Source: Halomarina ordinaria
GTDB lineage: Archaea > Halobacteriota > Halobacteria > Halobacteriales > Haloarculaceae
Direction of reading: 5' to 3'
DNA: 64,000 bases
NCBI RefSeq assembly: GCF_030553305.1
Contig: NZ_JARRAH010000001.1
Span: forward strand, 1,302,001-1,366,000
The position numbers and the translations under genes are program-made. Below are positions 57,486-63,744 of this stretch, in pieces. The notes beneath the pieces were generated by a model. That model ran no database searches and was not told the origin of the DNA. It was given only the letters and a program-made list of their open reading frames with translations. How positions within the stretch are numbered: the first letter of the stretch is position 1; each line of letters opens with the position of its first letter.

Positions 57486-58145
57486 ATGGACGACCAGCGC
57501 GACCGGGTGCGGCGAGGGTACGACGCGCTGGCCGAGGCGTACGCGGCCGCACGCTCCGGAGACGGTGACGGCGTCGCACTCCTCTCGGACCTCGCGGCGA
57601 ACCTCCCGGCCGACGCGCGCGTCCTCGACGCCGGCTGTGGACAGGGGGCGCCCGTCCTCACCCGTCTCGACGAACGGTTCGACCCCGTCGGCCTCGACGT
57701 CTCGCGCGCCCAGTTGACCCTCGCACGCGAGGCGTGCGACGCGGCGCTCCTCGCGGGTGACATGACCGCCCTCCCGTTCGTGGACGACAGTTTCGACGGC
57801 GTCACGGCCTACCACTCGCTCATCCACGTCCCGACCGACGAGCACCCGACGGCGCTCGCGGAGTTCGCCCGCGTCCTCCGCCCGGGCGGCTCCCTCCTCC
57901 TCTCGACGGGGATGGGTGCCTGGACGGGGCGAAACCGCGACTGGCTGGACACCGGCGTCGCGATGGAGTGGAGCTTTCCGGACCTGGAGACGACGAAGGC
58001 CACGCTCCGGGACGTGGGGTTCGACCCCGTCGCGGAGTGGTACGTCGAGGACCGGTTGGGGGAGGACGAGGACGACGGAGACGAGGGGGCGACGACCGAC
58101 GAGTCGGTCGACCCGTGGGTGTTCGTGCTGGCGCGCCTCGACTAG
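57486..58145 (+). CDS. Class I SAM-dependent methyltransferase
   Basis: A 219-residue methyltransferase with the SAM motif VLDAGCGQGAPVLTRLDER, the acidic loop LDVSRAQLTLAR and motif II/III regions FDGVTAYHSLIHV and LLLSTGMGAWTGRNRDWLD. The substrate cannot be deduced; the layout is like ubiquinone/menaquinone-type or small-molecule methyltransferases. A Glu/Asp-rich insertion (GEDEDDGDEGATTDES) precedes the last strand. Its stop overlaps the end of the SelW-like gene on the opposite strand. Confidence 0.88.
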   Translation: MDDQRDRVRRGYDALAEAYAAARSGDGDGVALLSDLAANLPADARVLDAGCGQGAPVLTRLDERFDPVGLDVSRAQLTLAREACDAALLAGDMTALPFVDDSFDGVTAYHSLIHVPTDEHPTALAEFARVLRPGGSLLLSTGMGAWTGRNRDWLDTGVAMEWSFPDLETTKATLRDVGFDPVAEWYVEDRLGEDEDDGDEGATTDESVDPWVFVLARLD

Positions 58146-58372
58146 AGTTCCGCGCGCACCCGCCGCACGACCGCGTCGACGTCGAAGTCGTCCTCGCTCA
58201 CGTCGAAGACGCGCTCGCCGTCGACGCGGACGGTGAACACGCCGTGGTCGCCGGTGACGAGCGCGACGCGGTCGAGGCGCTCGCCGAACGTCGTCAGCAG
58301 GACGTGCTGGACGTCCTCCGCGCGGCGCAGGAACCCACACGGGACGCAGTACTCTATCTCGACGCTCGTCAC
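58142..58372 (-). CDS. SelT/SelW/SelH-like (Rdx) thioredoxin-fold protein
   Basis: A 76-residue redoxin with the CxxC motif Cys9-Val-Pro-Cys12 in VEIEYCVPCGFLRRAEDVQ, where many relatives have CxxU. The Rdx family is thioredoxin-like and probably handles thiol redox reactions. The GTG start at 58372 overlaps the stop of the membrane protein gene upstream (58369-58372), and that gene in turn overlaps CtaB, so three proteins come from one message: CtaB fusion, membrane protein, SelW-like. A role in thiol chemistry of oxidase assembly is inferred. Confidence 0.88.
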   Translation of the reverse strand: MTSVEIEYCVPCGFLRRAEDVQHVLLTTFGERLDRVALVTGDHGVFTVRVDGERVFDVSEDDFDVDAVVRRVRAEL

Positions 58373-59070
58373 CGGACCCACCCCCCGAGACGGGCGAGGT
58401 CGGCCGCCGTCGGCCGCCGGACGAGCAGCGCGACGGCGAGAACGAAGACGAGCGTCGAGAGGGCGTAGCTCCCGTCGCCGACGAGCGCCGCACCGTCGCC
58501 GACGAACCCGCCGAGCGTCCCCGCGAGGAGCGGGAGCGCGCCGACGAGACAGGGACCGAGTGCCGCAGGCCCCCTCGTGTCGACGAGCGCGACGGCGAGG
58601 AGGTACGCGAGCGCCGCGTAGCCGACGACTCTGAACGACACGAGCGCGAGCGTGAGGCCGCCGCCGGTGTAGAGGAGCGCGGGGCTCCACCCCGGCGGGA
58701 GGCCGGCGACGACGAGCCGCGGGCCGACGTCTGGACCGCCGGCGCCGACGGCGTAGAGCCCGCCGACGGAGCCGAGGGCGAGCAGGTACCCGACGCCGAG
58801 TGCGCCCGCGACGGCGCGACGGCGCGTCGACGCCCCGGCTGCCGAGACGCGCCGGGCCTGCCGGACCCGCCAGACCCCCCAGAGGGCGACGTTCAGCCAG
58901 ACGAACGGGTAGACGTAGACCAGCGGCCGGTAGGGGACGGCGTCGGAGAGGACGAAGTACGCGAGGAGGGCGAGGAGTTCCGTGTTGACGAGGACGCCGC
59001 CCGCGACGAGCGCGTCGCGCGTCAGGAGGGGCCGGGAACCGGTCCGGGAGGCGGTCCCGGAGGCGGTCAT
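58369..59070 (-). CDS. Polytopic membrane protein of the ctaB operon
   Basis: A 233-residue integral membrane protein with six or seven hydrophobic helices (for example LVNTELLALLAYFVLSDAVP, VYVYPFVWLNVALWGVWRV, GALGVGYLLALGSVGGLYA). I recognise no catalytic motif. It overlaps the CtaA-CtaB fusion gene upstream by four bases (ATGA) and the SelW-like gene downstream by four (GTGA), implying coupled translation in a heme or oxidase biogenesis operon. Function unknown. Confidence 0.82.
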   Translation of the reverse strand: MTASGTASRTGSRPLLTRDALVAGGVLVNTELLALLAYFVLSDAVPYRPLVYVYPFVWLNVALWGVWRVRQARRVSAAGASTRRRAVAGALGVGYLLALGSVGGLYAVGAGGPDVGPRLVVAGLPPGWSPALLYTGGGLTLALVSFRVVGYAALAYLLAVALVDTRGPAALGPCLVGALPLLAGTLGGFVGDGAALVGDGSYALSTLVFVLAVALLVRRPTAADLARLGGWVR

Positions 59071-60476
59071 AGCGCGATGGCGTCGACGAGGACGGCGACG
59101 AGCAGCGCACCCAGGTAGGCGTTCGAGGCGTGGAACGCGCGCAGGGCGGCCCCCTTCGTCCGCTCGCGGTGGAGGCGCACGACCATCCAGAGGAACAGCG
59201 CGCCGAAGGTGACGGTGGCGCTCGCGAACAGCCAGCCGAGGCCGGTCAGCGCCGTGAGGACGCTCGCCGCGACGAGCGTCGCCGCGAGGTAGAAGACGAT
59301 GTGCTTTCGCGTCTCCGTCTCGCCGCGGACGACGGGCATCATCGGGAAGCCGCCGCGGGCGTAGTCCTCCTTGTACGCGAGCGCGAGGTTGTAGAAGTGC
59401 GCCGGCGTCCAGAGGAAGATGACGCCCGCGAGCGCGAGGCCGGCGAGGCCGACCTCGCCCGTCGCCGCGGCCCAGCCGATGAGCGCCGGGAGCGCCCCCG
59501 CCGCGCCGCCGATGACGGTGTTCTGGACGGTGTTGGGCTTGAGGACGAGCGTGTAGACGACGCTGTAGAAGACGATGGCGGCGAAACCGAGGCCCGCCAC
59601 GAGGGTGTTCACCTGGAGGAAGACGGCGACGGCGGCGACGGTGAGCAGGCCGCCGAAGACCAGCGCGTTGCGCACCGGCACCTGGTGGGTGGCGAGCGGG
59701 CGGTCGGCGGTCCGGGCCATCTTCTGGTCGACGTCGCGTTCGAGGACGTGGTTGAACGTCCCGCTGGCGCCGATGGCGAGGACGCCGCCGCCGAGCGTGT
59801 AGGCGATGGTGTCGACCCGGAGGTCGGGGCCGGCGGCGAGCGCCATCGCCGCGCCCGCGACCAGACAGAGCAGCCACATCAGCCGGGGCTTCATGAGCTT
59901 GAAGTAGGCGTAGAGGGTCGCCCGTGCTCGGGCGACGGGGCCGCGCTGTGAGAGGGGCGTGGGGGTGCCGGCGGGGTCGGGCGCGGGCGTGTCGTCCGTG
60001 GCCGAGAGGGTTCCGGCGGCCTCGGTCGTCGCGGGGGGACGGTGGCCCGTCTCGGCTTCGAGTTGCCACGCGAGCGCGAGCGCGAGGCTGGCGAAGATGG
60101 CCACCGCGGCGAGGAGGTGGGCGCCCGCGAGCAGCGAGGGGGCGCCGGCGACGGCGACGAACGCGCCGACGGCGACCTGGACGGGGTAGAGCGCGAGCGC
60201 GACGCCGAGGGCGGCCCGGACGCGTCGCGGGGCCATCGACCAGCCGACCGCGACGGTGGCGAGCAGGAGCACGCCGACGACCGCCGCGGCGACGCGGTGG
60301 CCGGTGGCGACGGCGACCTGCGGGTCGGTGAGCGGTCCCGAGCAGAGCGGCCACGTCCCGCAGGCCGCGACGGCGTCCGCGAGCGCGGTGGTCGCCCCGA
60401 CCACGACCAGCAGGTAGACGCCGACGGTCGTCGCCGTGAGCAACGTCGTAAAGCGGGGGAGTCGAGGCACGGTCAC
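59067..60476 (-). CDS. ctaB: Fusion of a compact heme A synthase-like domain with heme O synthase (CtaB)
   Basis: A 469-residue membrane protein. Residues 1-140 form four helices like half of a CtaA/Cox15 protein: Cys39 and Cys45 (ACGTWPLC), heme-ligand candidates His60 (TGHRVAAA) and His120 (AGAHLLAAV). A linker with Thr/Pro/Ala (145-182) follows. Residues 185-469 are a UbiA-type farnesyltransferase (KLMKPRLM, NHVLERDVDQKMARTADRP, the second motif NLALAYKEDYARGGFPMMPV) that converts heme B to heme O. Together the two halves could make heme A for the oxidase. Compact four-helix CtaA variants are known from Aeropyrum. The next two genes overlap its end. Confidence 0.92.
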   Translation of the reverse strand: MTVPRLPRFTTLLTATTVGVYLLVVVGATTALADAVAACGTWPLCSGPLTDPQVAVATGHRVAAAVVGVLLLATVAVGWSMAPRRVRAALGVALALYPVQVAVGAFVAVAGAPSLLAGAHLLAAVAIFASLALALAWQLEAETGHRPPATTEAAGTLSATDDTPAPDPAGTPTPLSQRGPVARARATLYAYFKLMKPRLMWLLCLVAGAAMALAAGPDLRVDTIAYTLGGGVLAIGASGTFNHVLERDVDQKMARTADRPLATHQVPVRNALVFGGLLTVAAVAVFLQVNTLVAGLGFAAIVFYSVVYTLVLKPNTVQNTVIGGAAGALPALIGWAAATGEVGLAGLALAGVIFLWTPAHFYNLALAYKEDYARGGFPMMPVVRGETETRKHIVFYLAATLVAASVLTALTGLGWLFASATVTFGALFLWMVVRLHRERTKGAALRAFHASNAYLGALLVAVLVDAIAL

Positions 60477-60577: not shown

Positions 60578-61516
60578 ATGAGAGTTACCCGGAGATGGCT
60601 GGGTGCGTCCGGGGGGCTCGCGCTGCTCGCGCTCGCAGTCCTCGCGGAACCCGTCGCCGCCCAGACATCCGTCAACGAGGAGCTCATTTTCGGCCTCAAT
60701 CGGAAGCTGTTGTACGTGGCGATACCGATCACGGTGCTCGTGGAGGGTATCCTCTTCTACACCGTCTACAAGTACCGGAACAACGACGACCCCTCCCCGA
60801 CCCAGGAGAACCGTCGCCTGGAGATCACCTGGACGGTCGCGACGGCCATCATCCTGCTGTTCGTCGGCCTGGCCTCCTACCAGGTCCTCGGCAGTGCCTT
60901 CATCGGCGGCGCGACGGCCGCCAACCCCGGCGACGCCGAGGTCACGAACCTCTCGGAGGACTACGACGGTGCGCAGGCGCCGAGCGAGGCCGACGCCGTC
61001 GAGGTCGAGGTCGTCGCGGCGAAGTACTTCTGGGAGGTGAACTACCCCCAGGAGAACGTGTCGGGTGAGCAAGACACGGTGGTGATACCAGCCGACAGGC
61101 CGGTGTACATCCACGTCACCTCCACCGACTGGCTCCACGCGTTCCACGCGCCCGACCTCGGCCTGAAGCAGGACGCCTTCCCCGGCGAGTACAACACCAT
61201 CAAGACCGAGGTGTACGAGCCCGGGACCTACCAGCTCTACTGCGCCGAGTACTGCGGCGTCGGTCACTCCCAGATGCTCGGGACCATCGAGGTCCTGCCC
61301 GGCGACGAGTACGACCAGTGGATAGAGGACCAGCGTTCGAGCGGCGAGGCCGGCGGCAACGAGACGGCGGGCAACGAGACTGCCAACGCCACCGCGGGCA
61401 ACGAGACCGCCAACGCCACCGCCAACGGGACGGCGGGTAACGAAACCACCAACGCGACGGCCAACGCGACTGCCAACGGCACCGACGCCAACGCGACGGC
61501 CAACGGCACGAGCTGA
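60578..61516 (+). CDS. coxB: Cytochrome c oxidase subunit II with a sequon-rich tail
   Basis: A 312-residue oxidase subunit. After a signal (MRVTRRWLGASGGLALLALA), two transmembrane helices (about 44-66, 88-108) precede the CuA domain. CuA ligands are His187 (WLHAF), Cys222 and Cys226 with Glu224 between them, His230 and Met233 (YCAEYCGVGHSQM). Residues 261-312 are a low-complexity tail of Asn, Ala, Thr and Gly with twelve N-glycosylation sequons. It passes electrons from a blue copper or cytochrome donor to the catalytic subunit, which is not in the window. Confidence 0.96.
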   Translation: MRVTRRWLGASGGLALLALAVLAEPVAAQTSVNEELIFGLNRKLLYVAIPITVLVEGILFYTVYKYRNNDDPSPTQENRRLEITWTVATAIILLFVGLASYQVLGSAFIGGATAANPGDAEVTNLSEDYDGAQAPSEADAVEVEVVAAKYFWEVNYPQENVSGEQDTVVIPADRPVYIHVTSTDWLHAFHAPDLGLKQDAFPGEYNTIKTEVYEPGTYQLYCAEYCGVGHSQMLGTIEVLPGDEYDQWIEDQRSSGEAGGNETAGNETANATAGNETANATANGTAGNETTNATANATANGTDANATANGTS

Positions 61517-62463
61517 CCGGGCCGACACTCCTTCACTTTCTCACGCCGACCAGCGACGGCGACGCCCTCGACCTGACCGTGTCGAAGGACACGCCCTGCA
61601 CGAGGCGCTCGTCAGTCGACGAGACCGCACGCGTCCCCTGGGATGGCCGACGGCGCGCTCGCCGGCCGACGACCACGAGGTCGCCACGCTCCACACTCGG
61701 GTCGGCCGCGCGTGCCGGTCGACGAAACGCGTGGGAGCGGACGCGCTATCCCAGCACCGGACCGCTCGACGTGGACCCGGGCGTCCCACCCGCCACCGCG
61801 CGGGGAGACAGCATTGCGTCGCCCCGGTGCGTGCCGTCCGTGGCGGTTCCCCGACGCTCCCGAGTCGCCGGGGAGCGTCCACACGCTCGCCCCGTGGACG
61901 TGGCTCGTCGGCTGTGAGGGGAACCAGTCCCGTTTCGGCGAGGACAGCGCCGACGACCACGAGAGCCGACCGCTGGGGTGACCGACGTCCTCGCGGAGGA
62001 GCGAACCTCCACCGGTGGACAGTCGAGCGTCCGTCCCACTCGCACGAGGCGGGGCTGACGCCCGTCTCGCTCGCGGTCGGAGCTACCACGACCGTCCCCG
62101 ACGTCCCGGAGCGCGTTCCGTGCGACGACGTGCAGTTCGGCGAGCGACGGCGAGGGCCCACAGCCACGTGGCGACGATGGAACAGCAGTGTCGAGTCGGT
62201 CGTGGCGAGGGAGCGGGGCAGCCGTGACGTGACGCTCGACCCGGGACGCGGCACCCTCGGTCGACGTGTGCTCGCGTGGCCGCCGCGACGTCGGGTGACG
62301 CGCACGCGGGCGGTTCGACGGACGACGGGGGAGTGAGGAGGCTGTGCGGGGCTCGGCATCGCGGTCGTCACAGGAGAGGTGACGAGCAGGCTCGCCGCTA
62401 GCGGTGGCACGTCGATTCGGGGAGAGAGAGAAACCGGACGGGCGATGTGGCCCGTCGGTCGGT
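61517..62463. other. Region without a convincing gene between coxB and coxC
   Basis: These 947 bases separate two convergent genes. Several open frames exist on both strands, but their composition (high Arg/Ser/Pro/Thr, low Asp/Glu) is that of shadow frames and none has a family motif or a promoter at the right place. A short minus-strand stretch reads ALVVVGAVLAETGLVPLTADE, a fragment that looks membrane-like, but no gene can be built around it. Possibly decayed coding DNA or a regulatory/structural spacer. Confidence 0.55.
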
Positions 62464-63330
62464 TCAGATACCGAGTTCGGCGCCGACGTAGAGGACGACG
62501 ACGAGGAAGATCCAGACGGCGTCGACGAAGTGCCAGTACATCGAGACCGTCGAGACGGAGGTGTGTCGCTCGGCGGAGTACTGGCCGTAGAGCGCGCGGA
62601 CGAAGACGATGGCGATGAGGACGGCCCCGAGCGAGACGTGGAGGCCGTGCAGGCCGGTCAGGCCGAAGAAGGCGCTCGCGTAGATGCCCTCCTGCAGGCC
62701 GAAGCCCTCGTTGATGATGAACTCGTAGTACTCGAGGACCTGCCCGCCGATGAAGACGACGCCGAGCAGGAGCGTGACGGCGAGCAGTCCCTTGAAGCGC
62801 CCGTGGTTGTCGTTCAGCAGCGCGACGTGGGCGTAGTGGAGCGTGAAACTGCTCACGACCAGGATGGCGGTGTTGACGAGGACGAGCGAACTCAGGAGGT
62901 GGGGGAGTTCCGCACCCGCCGGGGGCCACGCCCCCGCACGGATGAAGAAGTAGTAGATGAACCCGGCGCCGAAGGTGCTGATTTCGCTCCCGAGGAAGAG
63001 CACCATCGCGAACCTGAGCCCGCGGGCGCTGCTGCCCTCCGGTTCGCCGTCCCAGAAGTTCACGATGAACGCGTGGTACAGCCAGCCGTAGAGACCGGCG
63101 AGGAAGACGACGGTGCTACCGATGAACACCGCCGGTCCGATGAGCGGGTTGATGAGGGGTTCCTGACCGTTGCCGAGGACGAACAGCGCCGCGCCGATGT
63201 AGAACCCGGCGCCGCCGAGGGCGGTGATGAAGGGCCACCAGGAGGCCTCCCCGAACCCGCGGGGCCAGTCCTCGACCGCGGGCAGGTGGTGGTGGTGCCC
63301 GCCGTGCTCGTCCGCTTCGTCTACACTCAT
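62464..63330 (-). CDS. coxC: Cytochrome c oxidase subunit III
   Basis: A 288-residue membrane subunit with seven helices. The N-terminal His-rich tail GGHHHHLPAVEDWPRG faces the cytoplasm. Helices carry the family segments SEISTFGAGFIYYFFIRAGA, FTLHYAHVALLNDN, and FFGLTGLHGLHVSLGAVLIA and SVSTVSMYWHFVDAVWIFLV. Subunit III stabilises the oxidase and helps proton uptake. It is transcribed toward coxB, not with it. No conserved Glu (Glu of the DCCD site) is changed in an obvious way. Confidence 0.96.
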   Translation of the reverse strand: MSVDEADEHGGHHHHLPAVEDWPRGFGEASWWPFITALGGAGFYIGAALFVLGNGQEPLINPLIGPAVFIGSTVVFLAGLYGWLYHAFIVNFWDGEPEGSSARGLRFAMVLFLGSEISTFGAGFIYYFFIRAGAWPPAGAELPHLLSSLVLVNTAILVVSSFTLHYAHVALLNDNHGRFKGLLAVTLLLGVVFIGGQVLEYYEFIINEGFGLQEGIYASAFFGLTGLHGLHVSLGAVLIAIVFVRALYGQYSAERHTSVSTVSMYWHFVDAVWIFLVVVLYVGAELGI

Positions 63331-63450
63331 GAGGCTCAGTTACGAGCGGGGGAGCAAAAAGGCTCTCAAAACCGCGAGGCGCAAGATAGACCTTCGGCCC
63401 CCGCCTACCGCGTGCAACGACCCGGAGACCCCCGCTCCGGCCCCACACCC

Positions 63451-63744
63451 ATGAGCGACGTCGAACCCACGCCGCCGGTCCGCACGCGGACGAACGAAGC
63501 CGACGTATCGACGACCCCCCCGTTCGACTGCGAGTTCTGCGAGCGACGCTTCGCCCACGAGGAGTGGCTGGTGCTCCACCGCGGGCTGGAACACGGCGAC
63601 CGCCTCTCCGAGGCGGAGTACGAGCGGTTCCAGGAGACCTACGAGGACGAGGAGGAGGAGCTGAACCTCTTCCGGCTGAAGGCGCTCGCCCTGCTGGTGT
63701 TCGTCTACTTCGGCTTCCTCATCACGTACGCGTTCGTGGCGTGA
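63451..63744 (+). CDS. C2H2 zinc-finger protein with C-terminal membrane helix
   Basis: A 97-residue protein. Residues 26-48 form a single C2H2 finger: CEFCERRFAHEEWLVLHRGL with the second His in LEHGD. A charged helix (SEAEYERFQETYEDEEEELN) links it to a C-terminal transmembrane segment (LKALALLVFVYFGFLITYAF). The finger would face the cytoplasm. Divergent from coxC, with a short spacer. Related small finger-plus-anchor proteins recur near haloarchaeal oxidase genes by my recollection; role unknown. Confidence 0.82.
   Translation: MSDVEPTPPVRTRTNEADVSTTPPFDCEFCERRFAHEEWLVLHRGLEHGDRLSEAEYERFQETYEDEEEELNLFRLKALALLVFVYFGFLITYAFVA

Follow-up and report, generated by a model that had tools for sequence, protein, structure and literature searches.

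Oxidases of the aa3 type depend on heme A, whose synthesis in haloarchaea is the subject here. The window, by which we mean the whole 64,000-nucleotide stretch of Halomarina ordinaria DNA analysed here, contains a gene beside coxB that joins a compact half of the heme A synthase CtaA to the heme O synthase CtaB. Does this single polypeptide make heme A, and if it does not, what is its CtaA half for? The preliminary description of the locus proposed that the half-domain is active alone and that one chain could channel heme B to heme O to heme A. The features on which the argument rests are listed here by position in the window.

58142–58378, minus strand: small thioredoxin-like protein of the Rdx/SelT-W-H family (PF10262, 65 bits)
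58369–59070, minus strand: DUF7546 membrane protein (PF24412, 167 bits)
59067–60476, minus strand: fusion gene, comprising a CtaA half lacking E57, a linker and CtaB (open reading frame, profiles, AlphaFold2, homologues in 288/292 haloarchaeal genomes)
59070–59939, minus strand: predicted heme O synthase (CtaB, UbiA fold), residues 180–469 (NF003349, TIGR01473, Foldseek)
59940–60047, minus strand: linker, residues 144–179, rich in Ala, Thr, Pro and Asp, cytoplasmic or surface, disordered (pLDDT <50 at 146–167)
60048–60476, minus strand: CtaA-like four-helix half, residues 1–143 (profile match to 6a2j; predicted helices)
60117–60119, minus strand: codon of His120, candidate heme ligand (His in 90/90 fused domains)
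60297–60299, minus strand: codon of His60, candidate heme ligand (His in 89/90 fused domains)
60306–60308, minus strand: Ala57, at the position of the conserved, proposed catalytic Glu (B. subtilis E57; alignment of fused domains)
60342–60362, minus strand: Cys pair C39...C45 (CGTWPLC; pair kept in 88/90 fused domains)
60578–61516, plus strand: CoxB, cytochrome oxidase subunit II, divergent from the fusion (PF00116, PF02790)
62464–63330, minus strand: CoxC, cytochrome oxidase subunit III (PF00510, 116 bits)

The fusion is a 469-residue frame that runs from a GTG start at 60476 to a TGA at 59069–59067; the preliminary description had given its coordinates correctly and had read Cys39, Cys45, His60 and His120 exactly. 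Its CtaB part clears the cut-offs of NF003349 (heme o synthase; 303 bits against 246, residues 182–467) and TIGR01473 (296 bits against 210), scores 206 bits with the UbiA Pfam profile and matches UbiA-fold chains including 6m31 and 4tq4 in Foldseek, with E values down to 1e-8. From these matches, residues 180–469 are a complete heme O synthase, predicted to farnesylate heme B. The first prenyltransferase motif (59727–59753, minus strand) reads NHVLERDVD, and the first Asp of the bacterial CtaB motif DRDxD is replaced by Glu in ten aligned haloarchaeal fusions.

The CtaA half scores 25 bits with Pfam, under the 29.9 cut-off. Its homology to CtaA is nevertheless real, because a profile built from 34 fused domains matches B. 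subtilis CtaA (6a2j) with an E value of 3e-24. An AlphaFold2 model of the fusion, computed from an input alignment made of rows of bacterial C-half/CtaB, has a mean pLDDT of 88.5 and shows predicted N-terminal helices at 7–32, 52–81, 84–110 and 114–143, a disordered linker at 146–167 and a UbiA helix bundle from residue 180. Profiles and model together bear out the architecture first described, a compact CtaA half fused to a complete heme O synthase.

The stop codon of the fusion overlaps the start codon of the DUF7546 gene (ATGA, in the sequence ctATGAcc), and because of this overlap the two genes are probably one operon. The DUF7546 protein and the Rdx-family CxxC protein (58142–59070, minus strand) lie directly after the fusion and are possible factors in cytochrome oxidase assembly or in thiol-redox chemistry at the Cys pair. 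Karavaeva et al. (2026, PMC12808453) noted selenoprotein W-like proteins encoded next to type 1A. Near coxC, the C-terminal 97 residues of a plus-strand frame at 62404–63744 correspond to a small protein in which a C2H2-like zinc finger precedes a single transmembrane helix.

One key residue is missing. E57 of the motif E57-x-x-H1-R is strictly conserved in CtaA and has been proposed to be catalytic (PMC12808453). The fused half of the window reads ATGHR around His60 and GAHLL around His120, with Ala at position 57, three residues before His60, an absence that the preliminary description overlooked. Judged by the features of class A or type 1A, the half has the four helices and the Cys pair and lacks the Glu of ExxHR. 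The same holds among 90 distinct haloarchaeal fused domains, where position 57 is Ala in 69, Val in 15, Phe in 4, Tyr in 1, Ile in 1 and Glu in none. His60 (89/90), His120 (90/90) and the Cys pair (88/90) are conserved in these relatives, and the fused half is therefore under selection. Among 77 bacterial eight-helix CtaA proteins, ExxHR is present in every N-terminal half (77/77), and every C-terminal half has the HR motif (77/77) and none the Glu (0/77). The fused domain shares this C-half pattern, with an HR motif and no Glu three residues before it; because it keeps two His and lacks the Glu, it resembles the cofactor (C-type) half and not the catalytic one.

Some genomes carry further fusion copies. 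In family f3, a second, diverged fusion paralog (L127–L132, in G104, G077, G224, G004, G043 and G045) has FWGHR or a similar motif and no Glu57. Two other second copies (L133 in G017 and L134 in G196) have lost the Cys pair from the CtaA half and are decaying or specialised paralogs.

A Glu-bearing CtaA-like protein, which we call E-type, is encoded elsewhere in the same genome. In the genome of the window (G000), the E-type gene (L001, C1:2606712–2607530) encodes an eight-helix protein that scores 51 bits with PF02628 (cut-off 29.9) and contains EWFHR and a second His (TAHF). Haloarchaeal E-types occur in two forms, with eight helices (about 280–340 residues) or four (about 160–210 residues), and all of the former (65/65) and all of the latter (39/39) carry Glu, H1 and H2 (104/104 separate proteins). 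The second half of the eight-helix form is poor in ligands: only 3/65 proteins have His at H3 and only 3/65 have it at H4, whereas bacterial CtaA in the same alignment has it in 8/8 at both positions. The E-type thus combines the Glu with its own His pair and mostly lacks a second pair; the fused half keeps a His pair without the Glu. Because H3 and H4 are lost, the half borne by CtaB is the only bis-His, Glu-less half in most genomes with an eight-helix E-type.

The missing Glu57 (90/90) and the separate Glu-bearing gene in the same genome speak against a half-domain that is active alone, and make the channelling of heme B to O to A within one polypeptide unlikely; CtaB might instead hand heme on to a CtaA made of two proteins. 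The preliminary description had named two findings that, together, would count against its reading: a second CtaA gene is indeed present, whereas both His residues are kept in relatives.

Extra four-helix, Glu-bearing CtaA-like genes (CPDWPxCYG ... EWAHRG ... HLG; L004–L013 and L015–L023) occur in other haloarchaea, in addition to the E-type gene of the same genome. Near-identical copies across genera suggest transfer, and their contigs, mostly 20–400 kb, may be plasmids.

The pairing of the two genes is nearly constant. Across 292 haloarchaeal genomes, E-type genes were called at E <= 1e-33, a threshold that falls between the scores of E-types (>=134 bits) and of fused domains (<=102 bits); the fusion was found in 288, the E-type in 286 and neither in 4 (G001, G007, G093 and G129). 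The only two genomes with a fusion and no E-type (G184 and G205) are drafts that are 93–94% complete. With one genome per genus (n = 77), the fusion is present in 74 and the E-type in the same 74. The four genomes without either gene have no match to PF02628 and none to COX1, and are probably anaerobes; COX1 is present in 10/10 checked fusion-bearing genomes. A Fisher test on the co-occurrence gives p = 5e-8 with shared descent ignored, and the joint absences are spread over two families or more. Two genes of one pathway would in any event be expected to occur together, since heme A synthesis requires both CtaB and CtaA. A profile of the fused protein had suggested that some haloarchaea have the fusion only; this was rejected when the E-type profile found the second gene in 21/21 such genera. 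In the same phylum outside the haloarchaea, 20 sampled genomes matched the fusion in the CtaB part only.

The two genes are seldom adjacent (2/74 genera sampled), and in the window's genome they lie 1.24 Mb from each other. In two genomes of deep families (G021 and G285), a four-helix E-type gene lies directly 5′ of the fusion, on the same strand and overlapping it. The overlap is an ATGA in G285, and in G021 the fusion probably starts at an ATG within the last part of the E-type frame. The resulting order, Glu half, Glu-less half and CtaB, is the order within single-chain bacterial fusions, in which a full eight-helix CtaA is fused to CtaB (L291, L292 and L294–L297, from records of Verrucomicrobia, Chloroflexi, Dehalococcoidia and Armatimonadetes). 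One of these two overlapped fusions (L014/L181, in G021) is the only fused domain in which His60 is replaced by Tyr (WGYR).

Where the fused half came from is a separate question. In a tree of 128 halves, the fused domains form one group (support 100) beside the E-types (support 99), apart from bacterial C-halves; an approximately unbiased (AU) test of a clade uniting fused domains with bacterial C-halves gives p = 0.46, so that this grouping is not rejected. The position of the Pfam match, the Cys spacing and the motif GHRxAA had prompted the idea that the fused half derives from a bacterial CtaA C-half. The tree does not bear this origin out, but the AU value leaves it statistically compatible. 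Match position is in any case undercut as a C-half sign, as four-helix E-type proteins likewise match the C-terminal end of the Pfam profile, and the fused-domain profile scores the N-half of B. subtilis CtaA (57 bits) above its C-half (36 bits). Since the fused half groups with the E-type, a C-half-like function would be convergent. Two origins are possible: a half-size gene may have been duplicated in tandem and one of the copies joined to ctaB, or a single gene for N-half, C-half and CtaB may have split. In the E-type tree, one four-helix group is nested within the eight-helix E-types, with at least two changes in all; this position would fit a loss of the second, His-less half in the nested proteins.

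We consider it somewhat better than an even call that the fusion is a heme O synthase tethered to the heme-binding, Glu-less half of a heme A synthase that is divided in trans. What is observed is the pattern of residues, the complementary losses in the two proteins, the joint presence of the genes and, in two lineages, their overlap; from this we infer that the fused half binds heme and takes part in electron transfer, that the two proteins pair physically and that heme O is handed over. In such a system, the CtaB part would produce heme O, and the E-type would hold it at its Glu/His/His site, where the C8 methyl group would be oxidised. The fused half would bind a low-spin heme b through His60 and His120, in the role of the C-terminal half of bacterial CtaA, and would accept or relay electrons. 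The tether to CtaB would put heme O production beside heme A production.

The main competing explanation, possible though in our view doubtful, is that the E-type needs no other protein to act as heme A synthase, working either as a homodimer or together with the second half of its own chain, and that the fused half is a non-catalytic domain derived from a relic, which docks, holds heme or regulates and brings CtaB along. It meets the divided synthase at its weakest point, which is steric: the chain of the eight-helix E-type already includes a partner for its first half, and this second half may occupy the place where a fused half would dock. According to PMC9145763 and PMC12808453, the four-helix CtaA of Aeropyrum functions as a homodimer. 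That enzyme gets by with a single kind of half, one that carries the Glu, and the E-type may likewise do without the fused half; the grouping of fused domains with E-types in the tree also fits. What the explanation accounts for poorly is that almost every one of the 90 fused halves retains the candidate ligands and the Cys pair, beyond the needs of a mere tether, and that most eight-helix E-types have lost H3 and H4, although H3 is reported to be essential in B. subtilis (PMC12808453).

A self-sufficient fusion, in which the fused half would be a homodimeric heme A synthase and one polypeptide would take heme B to heme A, is improbable: the half does keep the Cys pair and both His, and Aeropyrum has a four-helix CtaA, but the Glu that is strictly conserved in CtaA (PMC12808453), and present in 77/77 bacterial N-halves, is absent from 90/90 fused domains, and a separate Glu-bearing CtaA accompanies the fusion in 286/288 genomes. 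It is less probable still that the half is a remnant without function. Decay does occur in paralogs, as the loss of the Cys pair from the second copies L133 and L134 illustrates, but the main copies retain all four key residues across 74 genera, and the mean column identity of 34 diverse fused domains (53%) is not below that of 31 E-type N-halves (48%). A frame or assembly artefact, or a chance reading frame, would be conceivable in a GC-rich window with many long spurious frames on both strands, but an open frame for this fusion recurs in 288 genomes, which refutes this idea and leaves it a negligible probability.

The divided synthase that we favour can be set against systems already described. 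A fusion of a CtaA half with CtaB in Halobacteria is already known, published as a count: of 273 type 1A sequences, 154 carry a heme o synthase fusion, most of them from Halobacteria (PMC12808453). That study excluded fusions from its alignments; the fusions are the same as ours, and the fused halves never have Glu57. It also found type 1A and type 1A* together in only 10 assemblies, whereas we find fusion and E-type together in 286/292 genomes; the published rarity does not hold once fusions are counted. The eight-helix type 1A* is the separate E-type of the window's genome. Loss of H3 in type 1A* has been noted (Phe in 55%) and its status as a heme A synthase left open (PMC12808453); here, H4 is also mostly lost, and the protein is paired with a two-His fused half.

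The compact four-helix CtaA of Aeropyrum pernix, assigned to class A (Lewin and Hederstedt 2006, as cited in PMC9145763 and PMC12808453), is like the fused half in its four helices, Cys pair and two His; it differs in having the Glu and forming a homodimer, whereas the fused half has no Glu and is attached to CtaB. In B. subtilis CtaA (6a2j) and in bacterial CtaA–CtaB fusions, which are also listed in PMC8239418, an ExxHR N-half precedes a C-half with HR and no Glu, after which CtaB follows in the fusions. Bacterial CtaA thus has both halves in one chain, whereas in haloarchaea the halves are on two genes. We found no prior description of a Glu-less fused half in the open-access papers searched. 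As far as these papers go, the absence of Glu from all fused halves, the near-constant Glu-bearing second gene and the reciprocal losses are new.

For haloarchaea as a group, we regard as an evenly balanced proposition that they have a two-subunit heme A synthase divided in trans, with the heme-b half joined to CtaB, and that it arose by duplication or fission followed by reciprocal loss of the Glu in one half and of His ligands in the other. The co-occurrence would correct the report of rare coexistence of type 1A and type 1A* (PMC12808453). If the division is true, it would explain the type 1A* proteins and settle whether they are heme A synthases. The role of the second, heme b-binding half of CtaA is not fully elucidated (PMC12808453); with the halves on two genes, each could be removed, mutated or swapped separately in a tractable organism, and the role of the cofactor half would be open to separate genetics.
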